From Oscillospiraceae bacterium (GTDB lineage Bacteria; Bacillota; Clostridia; Oscillospirales; Oscillospiraceae): a stretch of DNA of 40,170 bases. The notes under the pieces were generated by a model, which was given only the letters and a program-made list of their open reading frames with translations, was not told where the DNA came from and ran no database searches. The stretch lies in NCBI GenBank assembly GCA_902787755.1, contig CADAHL010000023.1:1-40170 (forward strand), written 5' to 3'. Below, one piece after another: positions 7,684 to 36,030 of this stretch; positions within the stretch are counted from its first letter, which is position 1; each line of letters starts with the position of its first letter. A program made the translations under genes and the position numbers.

Positions 7684-8699
7684 CTCCGGTCCTCCCATCC
7701 TTCTTCCGTGATCAGCAGCAGATCCCCCAGCGGCCGGTCGGCGCCGTTGCTCTGGCGGCTGTAGCGCTCATGCAGGAAGGTCATCACCGCCGAGCCTCCG
7801 CCGTCCAGGTTATAGGCCCGCTGACAGCCCAGCTCTTCAAAGACCTTTGCCAGCTCCGGCAGCAGCATGCCCCGGGAATAGCCCTCCTGCCGCCCGTCCA
7901 CCAGCACGAAGCAATAGTGGCCGGGCTCGTAGTAGCCGATGGCGCTGCGGGGGTTGGGATAGCCCACGGCGGCGCTGGTCTCGTAGGAATCCATGGCATG
8001 GCCCTCCCGGTCCAGCAGCGCGGGGCCGAAGTTCCAGGCCTGGGCCACGCCCCGCTCCAGAAGCTCGTCCACGCTGTATTCGTCCCGCCGATAGGTCTCC
8101 ATCACGCCGTCCTCAAACAGCACGCACAGATCCCACCAGGTCTGGTCCTGGTGATAGATCTCCCCGTTGCGGACCAGAAAGCCCCGGTCCTGATAGAGCA
8201 TAAAGTCCCCGCTGATGGCCAGGATCGCGTGGGATTCGGCGTCCATCTCCATCAGGTCCTGGGTATCGAAGTATTCCATCGTCCCGTGGGCCGTCCGGGT
8301 CCGGAAATTGTCCAGGCTGGCGATATGAATGTCCGCCAAGTGGTAGGTGACGGTTTTGGCTCCCTCGCCGGTCTGGATGGTGGAGATGTGGATGGCCACC
8401 TGGGGACTGGTGTAGGAGTTTTCGGTGATCACCGTCTCTTCGGTGAACTGGTCGGCAAAGCGGATCTGCCAGGGCGTCCGGAGATCCGGGGTCGCCGTCG
8501 GCTCCGGTTCCGACACGGGCTCCGGCGTGGGGCTCGTCTCCGGCACAGGCTCCGGCGTCGCCGTCGGCTCCGGCGGGGCGGCGGGGGCTCGGTTCCGGGC
8601 CGGGAAGAGCTGCGCGCCCGCCGCGGCGCCCAGGATCAGCGCTGCCAGCAGCAGGTCCGCCAGAAGGGTCAGCGCGATGCGCTTCGGCGTTCTATTCAC
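7680..8699 (-). CDS. Phosphodiester glycosidase (NAGPA-like) family protein, secreted or anchored (339 aa)
   Basis: An N-terminal hydrophobic segment (about residues 8-30) is a signal anchor or signal peptide. A Pro/Thr/Glu-rich spacer (about 36-72, repeated PTATPEP-like units) follows. The globular domain from about 90 to the end matches the phosphodiester glycosidase family: NPRSAIGYYEPGHYCFVLVDGRQ is the best-conserved part, here given only in outline, and YNLDGGGSAVM is the hallmark motif. Family members cleave sugar phosphodiesters or act on exopolysaccharide; the substrate here is unknown. The start is a GTG at 8699 with GGGAG upstream. It overlaps the preceding FAD gene by eight bases and the next gene by four. 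Confidence 0.85.
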   Translation of the reverse strand: MNRTPKRIALTLLADLLLAALILGAAAGAQLFPARNRAPAAPPEPTATPEPVPETSPTPEPVSEPEPTATPDLRTPWQIRFADQFTEETVITENSYTSPQVAIHISTIQTGEGAKTVTYHLADIHIASLDNFRTRTAHGTMEYFDTQDLMEMDAESHAILAISGDFMLYQDRGFLVRNGEIYHQDQTWWDLCVLFEDGVMETYRRDEYSVDELLERGVAQAWNFGPALLDREGHAMDSYETSAAVGYPNPRSAIGYYEPGHYCFVLVDGRQEGYSRGMLLPELAKVFEELGCQRAYNLDGGGSAVMTFLHERYSRQSNGADRPLGDLLLITEEGWEDRR

Positions 8700-10284
8700 C
8701 TGGATCCGCTCCCTTCATCACCGCTTCGGCACAGCGCAGGCCGTCCACCGCCGCGGAGGTAATGCCCCCGGCGTAGCCCGCGCCCTCGCCGCAGGGATAT
8801 AGGCCCCGGATGGGGGAGCTCAGGTCCGCGCCCCGCAGGATCCGTACCGGGGAGGAGGAGCGGGTCTCCGGCCCGGTCAGCACCGCCTCCGGGTCGTCAA
8901 AGCCCCGGAGCTTCTGCCCCAGGGCCGGAATGGCCCGGGCCAGCACCCCGGTGATTTTCTCCGGCAGCACCCGGCGCAGATCGCCCCAGGATACTCCCGG
9001 CCGATAGCTGGGCTGTACCCGGCCAGGACCTGTACTGGGCCGTCCTGCCAGGAAATCCCCCACCAGCTGGGCGGGCGCCCGATAGTCCCCGCCGCCGCAG
9101 CGGTAGGCGGCCTGCTCGATCTGCCGCTGCCAGCGCATGCCGGCCAGCACGTCCGTGCCGGGAAAATCCCCGGTCTTCAGCGTCACCAGCAGGGCGGCGT
9201 TGGCGTTCTCTCCGTCCCGGGCGGCATAGCTCATGCCGTTGGTGACCACGGCTCCCGCCTCCGAGGCCGCGGCGAAGACCTGACCGCCGGGGCACATGCA
9301 GAAGGTGTAGGCGCTCTCCCCGTCGGGCAGATGCACGTTCAGGGAGTAATCCGCCGGAGGCAGGCTCCCCCGCTCCCGGCCGTACTGGGCCAGGTCGATG
9401 TCGGCCTGGCGGTGTTCGATGCGCACCCCCATGGAGAAGGGCTTGGGCTCCATGGGCACGCCCTGGGCCAGAAGCGCCTCAAAGGTGTCCCGGGCGGAGT
9501 GGCCGATGGCCAGGATCAGCTGGCTGCAGAGGATGTCCCGCTCTCCCTCCCGGTCCCGGACCCGGATGCCGGTGAGGGCGCCGTTCTCGATCCGCAGGGC
9601 CTGGAGCCTGGTGCCGAAGAGCACCCGGCCGCCCAGGGCCAGGATCTCCTCCCGGATGGCCTTCACTACGCTTACCAGCACGTCGGTGCCCACGTGGGGC
9701 TTGGCGTCGTAGGTCACGCTCTCCCGGGCGCCGTGGGCGTGAAATTCCTCCAGCACCCAGCGGATCCGGGGATCGTGAGTGCCGGTGTTCAGCTTTCCGT
9801 CGGAGAAGGTGCCGGCGCCGCCCTCCCCGAACTGGACGTTGCTCTCCGGGTCCAGGATCCCCTGTTCCCGCAGCCGCTCCACGTCCCTTTGCCGGGTGTC
9901 CACGTCCTGCCCCCGCTCGATCACCAGAGGCCTGGCGCCGGCCCGGGCCAGCGCCAGGGCGGCGAACATCCCCGCCGGGCCGAAGCCCACCACCACCGGC
10001 GGCGTCTCCGGCGTATAGCGGGGGATGACATAGTCCTGCTCCTCATAGAGCTGGGCGCTGCCGCAGCGGGCCTTTTTCAGTACCGCCTCCTCGTCCCCAT
10101 CCAGGGTCAGAAGCAGGGTGCAGATATAGTGGATATCGTCCTTGCGCCGGGCGTCCAGGGAGCGCTTGCGCAGCTTCCAGGACAGGATCCGCCCCCGGCC
10201 GATGCGCAGCTGTTTTGCCGCCTTCAGCGGCAGGGCCTCCAGGGGCTCCCCCGGCTCCAGGCGCAGGTTCCGGATCTGGATCAT
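8692..10284 (-). CDS. NAD(P)/FAD-dependent oxidoreductase, COG2509-like (530 aa)
   Basis: The first 90 residues form a small domain (IQIRNLRLEPGE...; basic RKRSLDARRK). It is followed by a Rossmann FAD motif, VVVGFGPAGMFAALALARAG, around residue 95. QFGEGGAGTFSDGKLNT and, near the C-terminus, PCGEGAGYAGGITSAAVDG are characteristic of this uncharacterised dehydrogenase family (also called BFD-like or 'FAD-dependent protein'). The reaction is unknown. The ATG at 10284 overlaps the stop of the upstream gene by four bases, with GGGGAGG before it; a start 14 codons earlier lies inside the neighbour and is less likely. It sits in the ansA operon beside a second FAD protein. Confidence 0.85.
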   Translation of the reverse strand: MIQIRNLRLEPGEPLEALPLKAAKQLRIGRGRILSWKLRKRSLDARRKDDIHYICTLLLTLDGDEEAVLKKARCGSAQLYEEQDYVIPRYTPETPPVVVGFGPAGMFAALALARAGARPLVIERGQDVDTRQRDVERLREQGILDPESNVQFGEGGAGTFSDGKLNTGTHDPRIRWVLEEFHAHGARESVTYDAKPHVGTDVLVSVVKAIREEILALGGRVLFGTRLQALRIENGALTGIRVRDREGERDILCSQLILAIGHSARDTFEALLAQGVPMEPKPFSMGVRIEHRQADIDLAQYGRERGSLPPADYSLNVHLPDGESAYTFCMCPGGQVFAAASEAGAVVTNGMSYAARDGENANAALLVTLKTGDFPGTDVLAGMRWQRQIEQAAYRCGGGDYRAPAQLVGDFLAGRPSTGPGRVQPSYRPGVSWGDLRRVLPEKITGVLARAIPALGQKLRGFDDPEAVLTGPETRSSSPVRILRGADLSSPIRGLYPCGEGAGYAGGITSAAVDGLRCAEAVMKGADPGE

Positions 10285-12537: not shown

Positions 12538-12567
12538 ATTATAATGACCATCGGATGGCGAAATCAA
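12538..12567 (-). promoter_or_regulatory. Promoter of the ansA operon
   Basis: On the minus strand TTGATT (12567-12562) and TATAAT (12543-12538) are 18 bases apart. The -35 box lies inside the first hairpin arm of the neighbouring palindromic block. Confidence 0.6.
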
Positions 12568-12650
12568 TCGAGGATTCGATTGGTTTCGCTGCCAAACGAC
12601 AAGTTTGGCAGCGAATGACCCAAAGGGTCATTCGCCCGATTTACGGGCGA
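12559..12650. repeat. Chain of four contiguous hairpins
   Basis: Four palindromes abut or overlap by one or two bases. They are 12559-12570 with 12577-12588 (12 pairs, one wobble), 12587-12597 with 12603-12613 (11 perfect), 12612-12621 with 12625-12634 (10 perfect, AAA loop) and 12632-12638 with 12644-12650 (7 perfect). They lie in the 447-base gap between the divergent genes ansA and malQ, directly next to repeat element A. Confidence 0.85.
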
Positions 12651-12670: not shown

Positions 12671-12787
12671 AGTGAAGAGTGAAAAGTGAAAAGTGAAAAG
12701 TTATGGTGTCCCGCGAAGCGGGACGGATTCCAATTCGTCGGCTTCGCCGACACCGCATCTCTTCACGCTTCACTTTTATCTCTTCTC
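12671..12787. repeat. Repeat element A: inverted 7-mer arrays around two hairpins
   Basis: The left array has units agtgaag, agtgaaa, agtgaaa, agtgaaa at 12671-12698. Hairpin 1 is GTCCCGC-gaa-GCGGGAC (12708-12724). A spacer beginning GGAT follows, then hairpin 2, GTCGGC-ttc-GCCGAC (12737-12751). The right arm (about 12755-12787) is the imperfect complement of the left array. The rest of the gap to malQ (12788-12951) shows only a candidate promoter. Confidence 0.88.
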
Positions 12788-12863
12788 TTTGTACGATACC
12801 CTGGCATTGTCCACAAAAAAGAAAAATGAAATTTATCGCATCTGCCGAAGTTTTCCGGCCTTC

Positions 12864-16297: not shown

Positions 16298-18316
16298 ATG
16301 AATCTTGCAGACGAGGCCATGACCATCAAGCTGGATTACGAGCTGCCGGAATACCCGGAGATGGATCCCCAGTACCGCCGGGCACCCCGGCGGGAGGCAA
16401 AGCTCTCCCAGGCGGACAAGGCCCTGGCCATCAGAAACGCCCTGCGCTATATCCACCCGGATCACCATGCGCAGATGGCAAAGGAGTTCGCCAGAGAATT
16501 GGAGGAGCGGGGCCGGATCTACGGCTATCGCTTCCGGCCGGCGGGCAAGCTCTCCGGCAAGCCCATCGACCAGTATAAGGGCAAGTGCGTGGAGGGCCGG
16601 GCCATCCAGGTGATGATCGACAACAATCTGGACTTCGACGTGGCGCTCTATCCCTACGAGCTGGTGACCTACGGCGAGACCGGACAGGTCTGCCAGAACT
16701 GGATGCAGTACCGGCTCATCAAAAAGTACCTGGAGGAGCTGACCGACGAGCAGACCCTGGTGGTCATGTCCGGCCATCCCCTGGGCCTGTTCCACTCCCA
16801 CAAGCTGGCCCCCCGGGTCATCATCTCCAACGGCCTGATGGTGGGCGCCTTCGACGATCAGGAGCATTTCAACCGGGCCGCGGCCCTGGGCGTGGCCAAC
16901 TACGGCCAGATGACCGCCGGCGGCTGGATGTACATCGGGCCCCAGGGCATTGTCCACGGCACCTTCAACACCCTGCTGAACGCGGGCCGTCTGAAGCTGG
17001 GCATCCCCCAGGACGGGAACCTGGCGGGCAAGCTCTTTATCTCCTCCGGCCTGGGCGGCATGAGCGGCGCCCAGGGCAAGGCCGCGGTGATCGTGGGGGT
17101 CAGCTCCATCATCGCCGAGGTGGACGAGAGCCGGATCCGTACCCGCTACGAGCAGGGCTGGGTCACCCACGTGACCGACGATCTGGCCGAGGCGGTGAAG
17201 ATCGCCTTGGAGCACCAGAAGGAGGGCAAGGGCTGCGCCGTGGCCTATAAGGGCAATGTGGTGGATCTGCTGGAGTACCTGCTGGAGAAGGACGTCCATG
17301 TGGATCTGATGAGCGACCAGACCTCCTGCCACGTGCCCTACGACGGCGGCTACTGCCCCCAGGGCCTGAGCTTTGAGGAGCGCACGAGGATGCTGGCGGA
17401 GGACCCGGAGGGCTTCCACAAGCTGGTGGACGCCTCCCTGCAGCATCATTACGAGCTGATCTGCCGCTTCCACGACCGGGGCACTTACTTCTTCGACTAC
17501 GGCAACAGCTTCCTGAAGGCCGTGTACGACACCGGCGTCAAGAGCATGTGCAAAAACGGCGAGAACGACCTGGACGGCTTCGTCTTCCCCTCCTACGTGG
17601 AGGATATTCTGGGCCCCTGCCTGTTTGACTACGGCTACGGCCCCTTCCGCTGGTGCTGCCTGAGCCGGAACCCGGAGGATCTGGAGAAGACCGACCGGGC
17701 CGCCGCCGAGTACATCAAGGAGCACAACCGGCGCTACCAGGACTACGACAACTACGTCTGGGTCCGGGACGCCAAGAAGAACCAGCTGGTGGTGGGCACC
17801 CAGTGCCGCATCCTGTATCAGGACGCCATGGGCCGGATGAACCTGGCCCTGAAGTTCAACGAGATGGTCCGCAACGGGGAGATCGGCCCGGTGATCCTGG
17901 GCCGGGATCACCACGACACCGGCGGCACCGACGCGCCTTTCCGGGAGACCTCCAACATCAAGGACGGCTCCAACATCATGGCCGAGATGGCCACCCAGTG
18001 CTTCGCCGGCAACGCCGCCCGGGGCATGAGCTACATCGCCCTGCACAACGGCGGCGGCACGGGCATCGGCCGGGCCATCAACGGCGGCTTCGGCATGGTG
18101 CTGGACGGCTCGGAGCGGGTGGACACCATCCTGAAGATGTCCATGCCCTGGGACACCATGGTGGGCGTGGCCCGGCGCAGCTGGGCCAGAAACGAGCACG
18201 CCATGACCACCGCCGCGGAGTACAACAAGCTCTGCGCCGGCTCGGACCACATCACCATGCCCTACCTGGCCGATGACGCCATCGTGGAAGCGGCCGTGGA
18301 GAGCATGAAAAAGTGA
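16298..18316 (+). CDS. hutU: Urocanate hydratase (672 aa)
   Basis: It adds water to urocanate to give 4-imidazolone-5-propionate, using tightly bound NAD+. Conserved parts include QMTAGGWMYIGPQGIVHGT, SGLGGMSGAQ (NAD binding) and the C-terminal CFAGNAARGMSYIALHNGGG. At 672 residues it belongs to the longer version of the family seen in many Firmicutes. The ATG at 16298 is chosen over one at 16268 because AAGGAG lies eight bases before it. The last codons (ATGAAAAAGTGA) run into a tandem 7-mer array that supplies the stop codon and continues to the start of hutI. Confidence 0.94.
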   Translation: MNLADEAMTIKLDYELPEYPEMDPQYRRAPRREAKLSQADKALAIRNALRYIHPDHHAQMAKEFARELEERGRIYGYRFRPAGKLSGKPIDQYKGKCVEGRAIQVMIDNNLDFDVALYPYELVTYGETGQVCQNWMQYRLIKKYLEELTDEQTLVVMSGHPLGLFHSHKLAPRVIISNGLMVGAFDDQEHFNRAAALGVANYGQMTAGGWMYIGPQGIVHGTFNTLLNAGRLKLGIPQDGNLAGKLFISSGLGGMSGAQGKAAVIVGVSSIIAEVDESRIRTRYEQGWVTHVTDDLAEAVKIALEHQKEGKGCAVAYKGNVVDLLEYLLEKDVHVDLMSDQTSCHVPYDGGYCPQGLSFEERTRMLAEDPEGFHKLVDASLQHHYELICRFHDRGTYFFDYGNSFLKAVYDTGVKSMCKNGENDLDGFVFPSYVEDILGPCLFDYGYGPFRWCCLSRNPEDLEKTDRAAAEYIKEHNRRYQDYDNYVWVRDAKKNQLVVGTQCRILYQDAMGRMNLALKFNEMVRNGEIGPVILGRDHHDTGGTDAPFRETSNIKDGSNIMAEMATQCFAGNAARGMSYIALHNGGGTGIGRAINGGFGMVLDGSERVDTILKMSMPWDTMVGVARRSWARNEHAMTTAAEYNKLCAGSDHITMPYLADDAIVEAAVESMKK

Positions 18317-18339
18317 AAAGTGAAGAGTGAAGAGTGATG
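18312..18339 (+). repeat. 7-mer array bridging hutU and hutI (array D)
   Basis: Units agtgaaa, agtgaag, agtgaag, agtgatg run from 18312 to 18339. The hutU stop codon, the whole intergenic gap and the hutI start codon (GTG 18334 or ATG 18337) all lie inside. GAAGAG in the array is the only candidate ribosome binding site. Confidence 0.85.
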
Positions 18340-19572
18340 GAGAAGCTTCTGATCCACAACATCGGCCTGCTGGCCACGCCCCGGGGCCGTGAGGCCCGGA
18401 GCGGCAAAGCCCAGGGGGAGATCTGCCTGCTGCGCGGCGCCTGGATCCTCCTGGAGGGCGATCGGATCGCCGCCCTGGGGACCGGAGAGGCCCCGGAGAC
18501 GGACGCAAGGCGTCTGGATGCAGAGGGACGGTTGGTGACCCCGGGCCTGGTGGACGCCCATACCCACCTGGTGTTCGGCGGCTGGCGGCAGAACGAACTG
18601 GGGCTGAAGCTCCACGGCGCGGGCTATCTGGACATCCTGGCCGCCGGCGGAGGCATCCTCTCCACCGTGAAAGCCACCCGGGCCGCCACGGAGGACGAGC
18701 TGTTTGACAAGGCCCGGGCGGCCCTGGACGAGATGCTGGCCCTGGGAGTGACCACCGCGGAGGCCAAGAGCGGCTACGGCCTGGACCTGGAGACGGAGCT
18801 GAAGCAGCTGCGGGTGACCCGGCGGCTGAACCGGGAGCATCCCATGGATCTGGTCTCCACCTTCCTGGGAGCCCACGCCCTGCCCCCGGAATACAAGGAC
18901 GACCGGGAGGGCTATCTGCGCCTTCTCTGCGACACCGTGATCCCCCGGGTGGCGGAGGAGGGGCTGGCGGAGTACTGCGACGTGTTCTGCGAGACCGGCG
19001 TGTTCTCCGCCGACGAATCCCGCCGGATCCTGGAGGCGGGGCTGCGGCACGGCCTGCTGCCCAAGATCCACGCCGACGAAATAGATCCCATCGGCGGCTC
19101 CCGGCTGGCCGGAGAGCTGAGGGCCGTGTCCGCCGAGCATCTGATCGTCTGCCCCGAGGAGGGGATCCGGGCTCTGGCGCAGGGCGGCGTCATCGCCTGC
19201 TGCCTGCCGGCCACCAGCTTCTACCTGGGCTCCGCCTTCGCCCCGGTGCGGGAGATGATCGAAGCCGGCGTGCCGGTGGCCCTGGCCTCGGACTTCAACC
19301 CCGGCTCCTGCCCCAGCCTGAACCTGCAGCTGGTGATGAATCTGGCCTGCCTGCGCTATAAAATGACCCCGGAGGAGACTCTCACCGCCGTGACCCTCAA
19401 CGGCGCCGCCGCCATCGGCCGGGCGGGAGAGATCGGATCCCTGGAGCCGGGCAAGCTGGCGGATCTGGTGATCTGGGACAGTCCGGATCTGGATTACCTC
19501 TGCTACCGGATGGGCAGCAATCTGGCCGGACTGGTTTTGAAAAAGGGACAAATCGTGAAGCGCGAAAAGTGA
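18334..19572 (+). CDS. hutI: Imidazolonepropionase (412 aa)
   Basis: This metal-dependent amidohydrolase opens 4-imidazolone-5-propionate to N-formimino-L-glutamate. DAHTHLVFGG (His76 and His78) binds the metal, KIHADEIDPIGG carries further ligands and LASDFNPGSCPS the conserved aspartate. The start is a GTG at 18334 or the ATG next to it at 18337. The reading frame ends in REK followed by a stop codon that is part of the next 7-mer array (element B). It is the third gene of the hut operon. Confidence 0.95.
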   Translation: MMEKLLIHNIGLLATPRGREARSGKAQGEICLLRGAWILLEGDRIAALGTGEAPETDARRLDAEGRLVTPGLVDAHTHLVFGGWRQNELGLKLHGAGYLDILAAGGGILSTVKATRAATEDELFDKARAALDEMLALGVTTAEAKSGYGLDLETELKQLRVTRRLNREHPMDLVSTFLGAHALPPEYKDDREGYLRLLCDTVIPRVAEEGLAEYCDVFCETGVFSADESRRILEAGLRHGLLPKIHADEIDPIGGSRLAGELRAVSAEHLIVCPEEGIRALAQGGVIACCLPATSFYLGSAFAPVREMIEAGVPVALASDFNPGSCPSLNLQLVMNLACLRYKMTPEETLTAVTLNGAAAIGRAGEIGSLEPGKLADLVIWDSPDLDYLCYRMGSNLAGLVLKKGQIVKREK

Positions 19573-19680
19573 AGAGAGAAGAGTGAAGAGCTGTGGCGTC
19601 GGCTTCGCCGGCGGATCGTGATCTATGCCGCGAAGCGGCATACCGTATCTTTTCACTCTTCTCTTTTATCTCTCCACTTT
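19568..19680. repeat. Repeat element B: inverted 7-mer arrays around two hairpins
   Basis: The left array has agtgaag, agagaag, agtgaag at 19568-19588. Hairpin 1 is GTCGGC-ttc-GCCGGC (19598-19612) and a GGAT spacer follows. Hairpin 2 is TATGCCGC-gaa-GCGGCATA (19624-19642). The right arm (19643-19680) is the imperfect complement of the left. The hutI stop codon (19570-19572) is in the first unit. It may end the hut transcript. Confidence 0.88.
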
Positions 19681-24214: not shown

Positions 24215-24296
24215 AGTGAAGAAATAAGAGTGAAGAGCGAAGAGATATCCGTCTTTTCGCTCTTCCTTTTTCTCTTTTCGTCTTCTTTTCCTCAAG
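24215..24296. repeat. Element E: 7-mer inverted repeat without hairpin core
   Basis: The left units are agtgaag, aaataag, agtgaag, agcgaag (24215-24242). A short centre follows and then a pyrimidine-rich complementary arm to about 24296, with TTCGCTCT matching AGAGCGAA. There are no GC-rich inner hairpins. It lies five bases after the pyk stop codon and its 3' arm is T-rich, so it could terminate transcription. Confidence 0.75.
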
Positions 24297-32668: not shown

Positions 32669-32812
32669 AATGCGGAGTTCGGAATTGAGGGAAGAGATAA
32701 GAGAGAAGAGTGAAGAGCTAAGGTGTCGGCGAAGCCGACGGATAGGAATCCATGCCGCAAGGCGGCATACCACAACTCTTCACTCTTCCCTTTTCACTTT
32801 TCGTTTCGATTG
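32669..32812. repeat. Repeat element C: inverted 7-mer arrays around two hairpins, hybrid left arm
   Basis: The left arm starts with units like those of element F (GGAGTTCGGAATT around 32674-32686) and changes to agataag, agagaag, agtgaag. Hairpin 1 is GTCGGC-gaa-GCCGAC (32725-32739), followed by a GGAT spacer. Hairpin 2 is ATGCCGC-aag-GCGGCAT (32752-32768). The right arm to about 32812 contains a 13-base match to the left array in inverted form. It lies between convergent genes; the M20 gene stop codon (32794-32796) is inside the right arm. Confidence 0.88.
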
Positions 32813-34815: not shown

Positions 34816-35895
34816 ATGGATCCGAGACAGAACACGAGACCTGTAACCGTGGGCGGGCTGCCCGTGGGCGGCGGCGCGCCGGTGACGGTGCAGAGCATGT
34901 GCAACACCAAGACCTGGGACGTGGAGGCCACGGTGGCCCAGTGCAGGGCTCTGAAGGCGGCGGGCTGCGATATCGTCCGTCTGGCCATCCCCGATGAGCG
35001 ATCCGCCCGGGCCATTGACCGGATCAAGGAGCAGGTGGAGCTGCCCCTGGTGGCGGATATCCACTTCGACTACCGCCTGGCCCTGATGGCCGCGGAGCGT
35101 GGCATCGACAAGATCCGCATCAATCCCGGCAACATCGGCGGTCCGGAGAACGTGGAAAAAGTGGCGAAAGCCTGCAGGGAGCGGAACATTCCCATCCGGA
35201 TCGGCGTCAATGCAGGCAGTCTGGAAAAGCCTCTGCTGGAGAAGTACGGCCATCCCTGCCCGGAGGCCATGGTGGAGAGCGCCCGGGGCCATGTGGAGCT
35301 GCTGACCCGCTTCGGCTTTGAGGACATCTGCCTGTCCCTGAAATCCTCCACCGTGCCTATGACCATCGCCGCCTACCGCATGGCGGCCCAGACCTTCCCC
35401 TATCCCCTGCATCTGGGCGTCACCGAGACCGGCACCGAGTGGAACGGGACCATTCAGTCCGCCGTGGGCATCGGCACCCTGCTCTCGGAGGGCATCGGCG
35501 ACACCATCCGGGTCTCCCTGACTGCGGACCCGGTGCGGGAGGTCTCCGCCGGTATTGCCATTCTGAAGGCGGCCGGTCTGCGCAGAGGCGGCGTGAAGTT
35601 CGTCTCCTGCCCCACCTGCGGGCGCACGGAGATCGACCTGATCGGCCTGGCCCAGCGGGTGGAGGAACGGGTCCGGGATCTGGACCGGGACATCACCGTG
35701 GCGGTGATGGGCTGCGTGGTCAACGGCCCTGGAGAGGCCCGGGAGGCCGACTACGGCATCGCCGGCGGCCGGGACAAGGGCCTGATCTTCCGCAAGGGTC
35801 AGGTCGTGGGGACCTACGACTACGACCGGCTTCTGGACGCGCTGATGGAACTGATAGAGAATTCGGAATTCGGAACTCGGAATTCGGAATTATAA
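34816..35895 (+). CDS. ispG: 4-hydroxy-3-methylbut-2-enyl diphosphate synthase (359 aa)
   Basis: It makes HMBPP from methylerythritol cyclodiphosphate in the MEP isoprenoid pathway, using a [4Fe-4S] cluster. Cluster ligands Cys265 and Cys268 (SCPTCGR) and Cys300, with Glu307 in VVNGPGEA as the fourth ligand, are all present. VQSMCNTKT and INPGNIGG are typical N-terminal motifs. AGGAGG lies before the ATG. The natural C-terminus seems to be around LMELIE. The last eleven residues (NSEFGTRNSEL) are encoded by a gaattcg 7-mer array, an unusual repeat-derived tail. polC follows, an arrangement known in Firmicutes, but dxr and rseP are not upstream. Confidence 0.95.
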   Translation: MDPRQNTRPVTVGGLPVGGGAPVTVQSMCNTKTWDVEATVAQCRALKAAGCDIVRLAIPDERSARAIDRIKEQVELPLVADIHFDYRLALMAAERGIDKIRINPGNIGGPENVEKVAKACRERNIPIRIGVNAGSLEKPLLEKYGHPCPEAMVESARGHVELLTRFGFEDICLSLKSSTVPMTIAAYRMAAQTFPYPLHLGVTETGTEWNGTIQSAVGIGTLLSEGIGDTIRVSLTADPVREVSAGIAILKAAGLRRGGVKFVSCPTCGRTEIDLIGLAQRVEERVRDLDRDITVAVMGCVVNGPGEAREADYGIAGGRDKGLIFRKGQVVGTYDYDRLLDALMELIENSEFGTRNSEL

Positions 35896-36015
35896 GGTGG
35901 ACCAATGTTCCCGGCTGCCTGTTAGCGCGGGAACGACTGGCGCTGTACGGATCTCAAGCGCCGTGGTTTGCTTCGGATCGGCTCATTCCGAACTCCGAAC
36001 TGCGAATTCCGAATT
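35859..36015. repeat. Repeat element F: gaattcg 7-mer arrays around two hairpins
   Basis: Left units gaattcg, gaattcg, gaactcg, gaattcg, gaattat occupy 35859-35893. Hairpin 1 is GTTCCCG (35907-35913) with CGGGAAC (35928-35934) and an inner GCT/AGC. Hairpin 2 is GGCGCT (35939-35944) with AGCGCC (35957-35962). The right arm (about 35985-36015) carries the inverted units. The layout matches elements A-C, but the 7-mer is different. It fills the space between ispG and polC; the ispG stop codon is at the end of the left array. Confidence 0.88.
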
Positions 36016-36030
36016 GAAAAGGAGCTGTGC

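Follow-up and report, generated by a model that had tools for sequence, protein, structure and literature searches.

Non-coding 118-bp elements with heptamer arms in an Oscillospiraceae genome: probable miniature relatives of rRNA intervening sequences

The window, our term for the whole 40,170-nucleotide stretch of an Oscillospiraceae contig that was analysed, carries three related elements, A, B and C, between protein genes. Element A separates divergent genes for an asparaginase and a 4-alpha-glucanotransferase. The amidohydrolase gene upstream of element B has its stop codon in the left arm, and a formiminotransferase gene follows downstream in tandem orientation. Element C is flanked by convergent genes, and its right arm contains the stop of an M20 peptidase gene. 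An earlier note, written from the letters alone, had described three elements of one layout: a 7-mer array, a hairpin, a spacer beginning GGAT, a second hairpin and an inverted array. We found all three, with a single architecture. The three-base hairpin loops and the GGAT spacer had been described correctly, as had the exchange of hairpins, the GTCGGC type being second in A and first in B and C, where the ATGCCGC type is second. The coordinates given for A and B were close; the span given for C was too long by 19 bases on the left and 7 on the right (Table 1).

Table 1. Elements A to E and a solitary array in the window
Feature	Position	Strand	Description
Element A (putatively mini-IVS-like, non-autonomous)	12671..12788	+	118 bp, covariance-model boundaries
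A, arms	12671-12707 and 12752-12788		
A, hairpin 1	12708-12724		GTCCCGC-GAA-GCGGGAC
A, middle	12725-12736		GGATTCCAATTC
A, hairpin 2	12737-12751		GTCGGC-TTC-GCCGAC
Element B	19561..19678	+	118 bp, covariance-model boundaries
B, arms	19561-19597 and 19642-19678		
B, hairpin 1	19598-19612		GTCGGC-TTC-GCCGGC
B, middle	19613-19624		GGATCGTGATCT
B, hairpin 2	19625-19641		ATGCCGC-GAA-GCGGCAT
Element C	32688..32805	+	118 bp, covariance-model boundaries
C, arms	32688-32724 and 32769-32805		
C, hairpin 1	32725-32739		GTCGGC-GAA-GCCGAC
C, middle	32740-32751		GGATAGGAATCC
C, hairpin 2	32752-32768		ATGCCGC-AAG-GCGGCAT
Element D	24215..24282	+	Arms as in A to C (four 7-mers and inverted 7-mers), no hairpin core; model E 2e-7
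Element E	35857..36018	+	AATTCGG 7-mers (4 and 4 inverted, by eye) around two other hairpins, gcpE-polC junction
Solitary AGTGAAG/AGTGAAA array	18309..18337	+	Single arm, overlies gene junction

The unit reads, in order, four 7-mers (AGTGAAR), a 9-mer (AGTTRYGGT), hairpin 1, the 12-base GGATNNNNATYC, hairpin 2, ACCRYAACT and four inverted 7-mers; each arm comprises 37 bases and is inverted at the far end. The arrays are thus more regular than had been claimed, with four 7-mers and a 9-mer of the AGTTRYGGT type per side. The unit is discrete, non-coding and of near-fixed size, as proposed, and its length is about 118 bp rather than 115 to 145: the 83 parsed hits measured 113 to 122 bp (median, 118), a range that partly reflects the selection of full-length copies. 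A search pattern for the core matched A and C and had no match in 100 shuffles. Hence, the core does not arise by chance; B departs from the pattern by sequence. Covariance-model E-values for A, B and C ran from 4e-19 to 5e-22, values that are partly circular because all three were among the 24 training sequences. Rfam gave no match above the gathering score anywhere in the window, the best sub-threshold match lying at element A (21.1 of 34.7 bits).

Other repeats were seen in the window. Element E has an architecture similar to that of A to C. Positions 1729-1758 hold an AGTGCTC/AGTGCGC 7-mer array beside a gene start, in the AGTNNNN frame of the element arms. Immediately left of element A, positions 12540-12640 hold a separate non-coding repeat of four back-to-back hairpins. 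This repeat had no Rfam match, resembles its copies in numerous congeners at 84 to 99% identity (own copy G000:C40, 99%; G067:C50, 98%) and is far better conserved than element A.

As the earlier note had proposed, we scanned the genome (2.54 Mb) and its relatives with a covariance model. The model was trained on 24 own copies, A, B and C included. In the own genome, scoring 150 of 799 candidates gave at least 50 distinct places at E <= 0.1; element D adds one more. Own-copy statistics used 37 full-length places, 14 of 51 being left out as truncated, chimeric, over-long or weak. Together with 46 hits from relatives and named records, these made up the 83 parsed full-length hits, 82 of them distinct; six over-long or partial hits in relatives (L040, L041, L056 twice, L090 and L097) and three that duplicated another row had been dropped. 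Pairing tests used 77 of the 82 copies, and the five badly fitted ones (three own, two from relatives) were kept for the target-site-duplication test only.

Over-long and partial copies also occur, and some arms have fewer or more 7-mer units. The forms seen among chimeric or partial copies (L066, L005, L070, L078, L019 and L075) were a single-hairpin unit, an AGTGAAG arm paired with an AATTCGG arm, and a nested other repeat. Certain relatives' copies carry AATGAAA 7-mers in the same frame. Expanded 7-mer arrays were observed upstream of a formiminotransferase gene (L083; AGTGAGG, inverted AACTCCY) and downstream of an IVP gene, described below (L227; AGTGGTC). Hence, the arrays are able to grow far past four units. 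Perhaps replication slippage of 7-mers alone, as in simple-sequence repeats, together with chance hairpins, produced the elements? This would fit the expanded arrays and a survey of repeat-rich genomes, the majority of which reportedly have heptanucleotide repeats as their commonest class (PMC4679880). It is already contradicted by the regular architecture, with typically four units per arm and a conserved 9-mer and core, and by a position-specific variant, AGATAAN, which is the second unit from the outside in 10 of 34 right arms and 5 of 34 left arms and occurs twice in total at the other three positions. We regard slippage alone as highly improbable.

The highest identity among the 37 own copies was 91% (666 pairs), which argues against a recent burst. 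A 99% identical copy with identical immediate flanks was seen in G067 (L145) and G111 (L121); it is probably one copy, orthologous between closely related species.

Elements A, B and C each folded better than all 200 of their dinucleotide shuffles, with z scores of -5.1 to -9.6 as RNA (five strands tested) and -4.0 to -7.8 as DNA (six strands). Their terminal inverted repeats are predicted to form one long stem, as in an rRNA intervening sequence (IVS). For element C, the predicted fold is the same for RNA and DNA and on either strand: a long stem ending in a perfect four-way junction, with a GGAT/ATCC hairpin between hairpins 1 and 2. For element B, a four-way junction is predicted for both strands as DNA; as RNA (+), both hairpins form with the middle open, and the centroid shows a rod-like alternative. 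Element A favours a rod, with the hairpin arms pairing across.

Hairpin stems differ in sequence from copy to copy. They paired with their own partners at 0.93 to 1.00 and at 0.72 to 0.88 after swapping, and in five of six pooled stem classes none of 2,000 swaps equalled the true pairing, in a test in which the parser chose the best-pairing stems of each copy, which favours the true partner, and kinship was not controlled. The exception, hairpin 2 with 5-bp stems (n = 9), did not exceed the swaps. In the pooled set, the 28-base outer arms likewise paired best with the arm of their own copy (0 of 2,000 swaps as good); own copies alone showed no covariation of these arms beyond the consensus (593 of 2,000 swaps as good). 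An identical stem never occurred twice in one copy (0 of 77; 4.2 expected; P = 0.012; P = 0.07 for the 34 own copies alone); identical stems would presumably favour the rod over the cloverleaf. Hairpin loops were GNA, or the complement TNC, in 123 of 164 cases. As a check on strand preference, wobble pairs were counted in the 34 own copies, giving 107 G-T versus 80 A-C.

The earlier note knew of no described family like these elements. That claim was not supported: their arms and hairpins match an element of the same genome that encodes an IVP, the 23S rRNA-intervening-sequence protein, a four-helix bundle (PF05635), and the repeat also lies in the 16S rRNA genes of two relatives. This complete member of the window family (G000:C6; L076) precedes a kinase gene of the FGGY family (Pfam) and has its IVP gene, at 8401-8706, in the middle. 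Leading up to the gene are four AGTGAAN 7-mers, AGTTATGGT, a hairpin and GATTGTAATT; after it come TTATAATCC, a hairpin, ACCGCAACT and four inverted 7-mers. The arms, the 9-mers and both hairpins are like those of A to C, and the TAA stop of the IVP lies within TATAATCC. The protein has 115 residues (PF05635, 1.2e-28; TIGR02436, 2.3e-32).

At the orthologous place in G067 (L226) we found arms, a hairpin, GGATCGAAAT, an IVP gene, TTATAATCC, a hairpin and an arm. The sequence aligns to L076 at 75% from the upstream gene to the IVP and at 84% beyond, where apparently the same kinase gene follows. The model also matched a complete 114-bp unit directly downstream of this IVP gene (G067:C44; L226:415-528). 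Hence, the gene has a left half on one side and a whole unit on the other, and the orthologue is not clean; the arrangement suggests a tandem or nested insertion. The own genome has three IVP genes: besides that of L076, one (L222) lies between AATTCGG arrays, the 7-mer of window element E, and the third (L223) has no such arms. In G080, two left halves with hairpins stand ahead of an IVP gene (L213) and a right half comes after it, the 7-mers being, by eye, of the GGAATTR type.

Orthologous gene junctions were compared in 101 congeners at the junction of dnaG, assigned by Pfam, with a gene encoding HD and HD_assoc domains that we take to be dgt; the 30 best loci were fetched. Three of these (own genome, G021 and G082) carry a mini element by the model, and seven have a gap of at most 41 bases. 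Nine have inserts of 438 to 593 bases, each an ORF matching PF05635 within inverted 7-mer arrays (AGTGCGT, AGTTTTG, AGTTCGT and others), and the remaining loci have other repeats or gaps. Depending on the species, this one gene junction thus holds an element with an IVP, a mini element or a short gap. Since the IVP elements of several species look orthologous here, the pattern is partly one of old descent with loss. Between gcpE and polC, where element E lies in the window, G035 has an IVP gene between AGTGAAG arrays, and the flanks align at 85% and 69%.

In G575 and G471, which belong to another family of the order, the model matched inside a 16S rRNA gene (7.7e-13 and 3e-11), and in both the Rfam SSU match runs across the model match. 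The whole G575 insert folds as one long stem (z = -13.7). The two 16S inserts (L281:1470-1652 and L285:752-935) are bracketed by two copies of a target hairpin, which may be an approximately 31-bp duplication of the target; the intergenic copies show no such duplication. In L301, an IVP gene lies in 23S rRNA, adjoining LSU positions 1190 onward in the Rfam LSU match, a classical IVS place; 7-mer-like repeats are visible by eye at the readable end, the other side being masked. The window copies lie between protein genes and not in rRNA genes. With relatives of the same covariance family in two 16S genes, we therefore call them IVS-like rather than IVSs.

Bacterial rRNA IVSs have been known since about 1990, and their origin, their function and the role of S23 are described as still open (PMC4990558). 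The IVS of Coxiella is reported to have tandem heptamers and an S23p ORF and to be excised by RNase III, and an old hypothesis holds that the IVS ORF serves mobility (PMC4990558). Short IVSs lacking an ORF appear, in the relevant part of PMC2672173, in the rRNA of Salmonella (83 and 99 nt) and Photorhabdus (112 nt). We recognised no description of IVP elements or mini-IVSs dispersed outside rRNA among the papers of the open-access library that was searched.

The repeat is patchy among congeners: the covariance model found it in 43 of 102 genomes of the genus, and blastn in 18 of 60 relatives, own included. Order-wide, the model found it in 30 of 295 genomes and 21 of 149 genera. The strict core pattern, to which some but not all of the own copies conform, matched 10 stretches in 84,980 named genomes, with titles naming Pseudoflavonifractor, Oscillospiraceae, Clostridiales or Clostridia and some from goat and red deer. 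It was absent from a viral contig collection, which argues against phage origin insofar as so strict a pattern excludes close copies only.

Copies keep close to gene ends. Using a coding-frame heuristic (at least 80 codons with coding-like GC3), we observed that an inbound frame ends within -25 to +30 of 38 of 74 copy edges, compared to 144 of 3,926 shifted edges, and that the stop codon of such a frame falls within an arm in 21 of the 37 own copies. AGTGAAG at a period of 7 presents TGA in every frame within three units; insertions at gene ends may be tolerated for that reason. Might the elements instead be RNA structures for processing or stability that the host maintains where genes meet, which spread through descent and gene conversion and are not selfish? 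Strong stem pairing, edges flush with gene ends and the absence of two identical hairpins from any one copy would agree with this, but such a role sits poorly with the patchy presence among congeners, the short gaps at the orthologous junction, the insertions into 16S rRNA and the occurrence, in the window, between genes of any relative orientation (divergent at A, tandem at B, convergent at C). We consider it quite unlikely.

The earlier note had suggested a mobile or recombining unit. Exchangeable hairpins, the many places occupied, the patchy distribution and a junction with either a unit or a short gap support this in part; the target-site duplications that it had proposed to look for did not appear in any of the 82 copies (mean adjoining repeat, 0.43 versus 0.45 in permutations). 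The genes flanking A and those flanking C were not seen side by side in any of 61 genomes (4 candidates scored per genome). For B, the formiminotransferase gene, the sole flanking gene searched, was found in 10 of the 61; in the nine relatives among these, its upstream neighbours differ and nothing like B was seen ahead of it.

An insertion that produces an inverted copy of its flank, giving hairpins with a Shine-Dalgarno sequence as the loop, was also considered. A hairpin stood at offset 0 of 7 of 160 edges versus 1.0 expected, and offsets 1 to 9 had 4 to 8 each. The exact junction is hence not special, and we rejected the idea. A small palindrome with a GGA loop was seen at once or a few bases after the copy in L113, L118, L158, L027, L096 and the right flank of L072; in L072, L113, L027 and L158 it overlaps a Shine-Dalgarno-like stretch ahead of a start codon.

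How general is an IVP gene between inverted arrays? PF05635 was found in 44 of the 102 genomes of the genus, 27 of which also bear the repeat (odds ratio, 4.2; p = 0.001; kinship not corrected); 16 of the 43 repeat-bearing genomes, the drafts being incomplete, show no IVP gene. Among 50 of the 78 genus matches listed, namely, the best-scoring ones and 20 fetched from chosen genomes, 32 loci reached an inverted-repeat score of at least 16, compared to 2.6% of swapped pairs. Twelve of the 50 are the dgt-dnaG junction, and 20 of the other 38 pass. A 7-base periodicity was found upstream at 26 of the 50 loci and downstream at 26, any other period from 5 to 11 at 2 at most. In a sample of the phylum, 46 of 299 genomes have an IVP; 23 of 30 fetched loci pass the score, versus 2.3% in swaps, with period 7 upstream at 15 and downstream at 14 and periods 8 or 11 in a few. 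Several of the loci that fail (18 of 50 in the genus, 7 of 30 in the phylum) lie behind other multi-hairpin repeats. A second class of IVP genes was noticed (L224, L228, L230, L232, L233, L237, L238, L240 and L241), with upstream hairpin runs, short constant linkers (GTGATGTG, GTGATATT and ATGAAATC types) and no matching downstream arms.

These loci bear on whether the elements are DNA elements of the MITE or REP/BIME kind, moved by a DDE or Y1/RAYT-type transposase, with the IVP a passenger in one copy. Inverted ends of 37 bp, a near-fixed length and many copies are what such elements would have, and a Y1 transposase domain has two matches in the genome. The one examined (L033:2508-3038; Y1_Tnp, 3e-6, Pfam), however, has a different repeat (GTAGGGGCGAC...; GTAGGGGCGACC...GGTCGCCC) both ahead of it and inside it, partly translated within the protein (GDPCGRP), and so offers no REP/RAYT identity for the window elements. 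The lack of target-site duplications in the 82 copies likewise led us to reject a MITE that makes them. Among the own copies examined, none is a transposase-encoding partner with shared ends; the partner encodes an IVP instead. Because repeat arms bracket the gene at most of the IVP loci tested, the IVP does not reflect a single passenger event. A transposase-driven origin is therefore unlikely. A match to a known REP/MITE family, which the earlier note would have taken against its proposal, was found neither in Rfam nor by the marks of REP/RAYT or MITE elements.

Taken together, the 118-bp elements are probably non-autonomous "mini-IVS" elements and belong to a dispersed family in which an IVP is encoded by the full-length members. 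A mini form would arise when the IVP gene is lost by internal deletion and the middle closes into GGATNNNNATYC. In a transcript, the arms would form a stem of about 37 bp topped by the hairpins. This RNA stem is probably a substrate of RNase III, by analogy with rRNA IVSs, and would be cut or trimmed as reported for them; such cutting would make insertions tolerable at gene ends and in rRNA. The IVP, acting in trans, would recognise the folded RNA or single-stranded DNA and may take part in copying the element to new sites, the least certain step. With no target-site duplication and a top pair of only 91% identity, the copies do not show present activity.

A broader reading seems to us possible rather than probable: that IVP/IVS elements form a general class of mobile elements in bacteria, with arms of short repeats, mostly 7-mers; that IVP genes lie phylum-wide between inverted arrays of many sequences, often AGTNNNN-like; that the IVP acts, both in cis and in trans, on a folded cloverleaf RNA or on a single strand, copying it into gene ends and rRNA helices; and that it supports swarms of non-autonomous mini elements. 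If so, rRNA IVSs are merely the insertions that landed in rRNA.

Here, an element of the IVS kind is seen in about 50 copies away from rRNA; one genome has both the IVP-bearing form and miniature ones, and relatives have copies in rRNA. Substrates, a candidate factor and natural alleles are thereby at hand, making mobility and RNase III processing directly testable, and with them the old question of how rRNA inserts spread. Mini-IVS elements may also explain part of the intergenic heptamer repeats reported in bacteria.

Several known systems invite comparison. MITEs and palindromes of the ERIC and bcr1 types have a similar size, a palindromic layout and many dispersed copies; the window elements differ in their 7-mer arms, in having an IVP-encoding partner instead of a transposase and in the lack of any target-site duplication found. 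REP-RAYT systems and BIMEs place GC-rich hairpin pairs between genes, whereas the window elements have no GTAG foot and the Y1 gene examined accompanies another repeat. Avd of diversity-generating retroelements is distantly similar to the IVP of one dgt-dnaG locus (L166; bAvd, 7.8e-7; DivGenRetAVD, 5.1e-7; both under the curated cut-off), a resemblance of one IVP type through which an RNA-based route becomes conceivable; the L076 IVP did not match Avd at E <= 0.001. Cyanobacteria have a heptamer repeat, STRR, comparable to the element arms. Like the elements, the heptamer repeats of cyanobacteria and Beggiatoaceae (TAACTGA) are intergenic direct repeats of 7-mers, patchy across phyla; they are described as mostly direct arrays beside start codons, and the sections describing them draw no link to an IVP (PMC4679880).

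The rRNA IVSs of Coxiella, Leptospira and Salmonella come closest. The window elements differ from them in their dispersal (about 50 copies, those of the window intergenic), in arms of typically four 7-mers and in two covarying hairpins around the GGATNNNNATYC middle. They share with them a long terminal inverted repeat that acts as the stem and, in the full-length form, an IVP gene: L076 encodes it cleanly and L226 with an extra unit, while A, B and C themselves are without it. Also in common are short forms lacking an ORF, the tandem heptamers reported for Coxiella and a location in rRNA, in the case of this repeat in 16S genes of relatives. Hence, the arms and hairpins of the IVP-bearing element, together with the copies in 16S rRNA, place the window elements near the bacterial rRNA intervening sequences.
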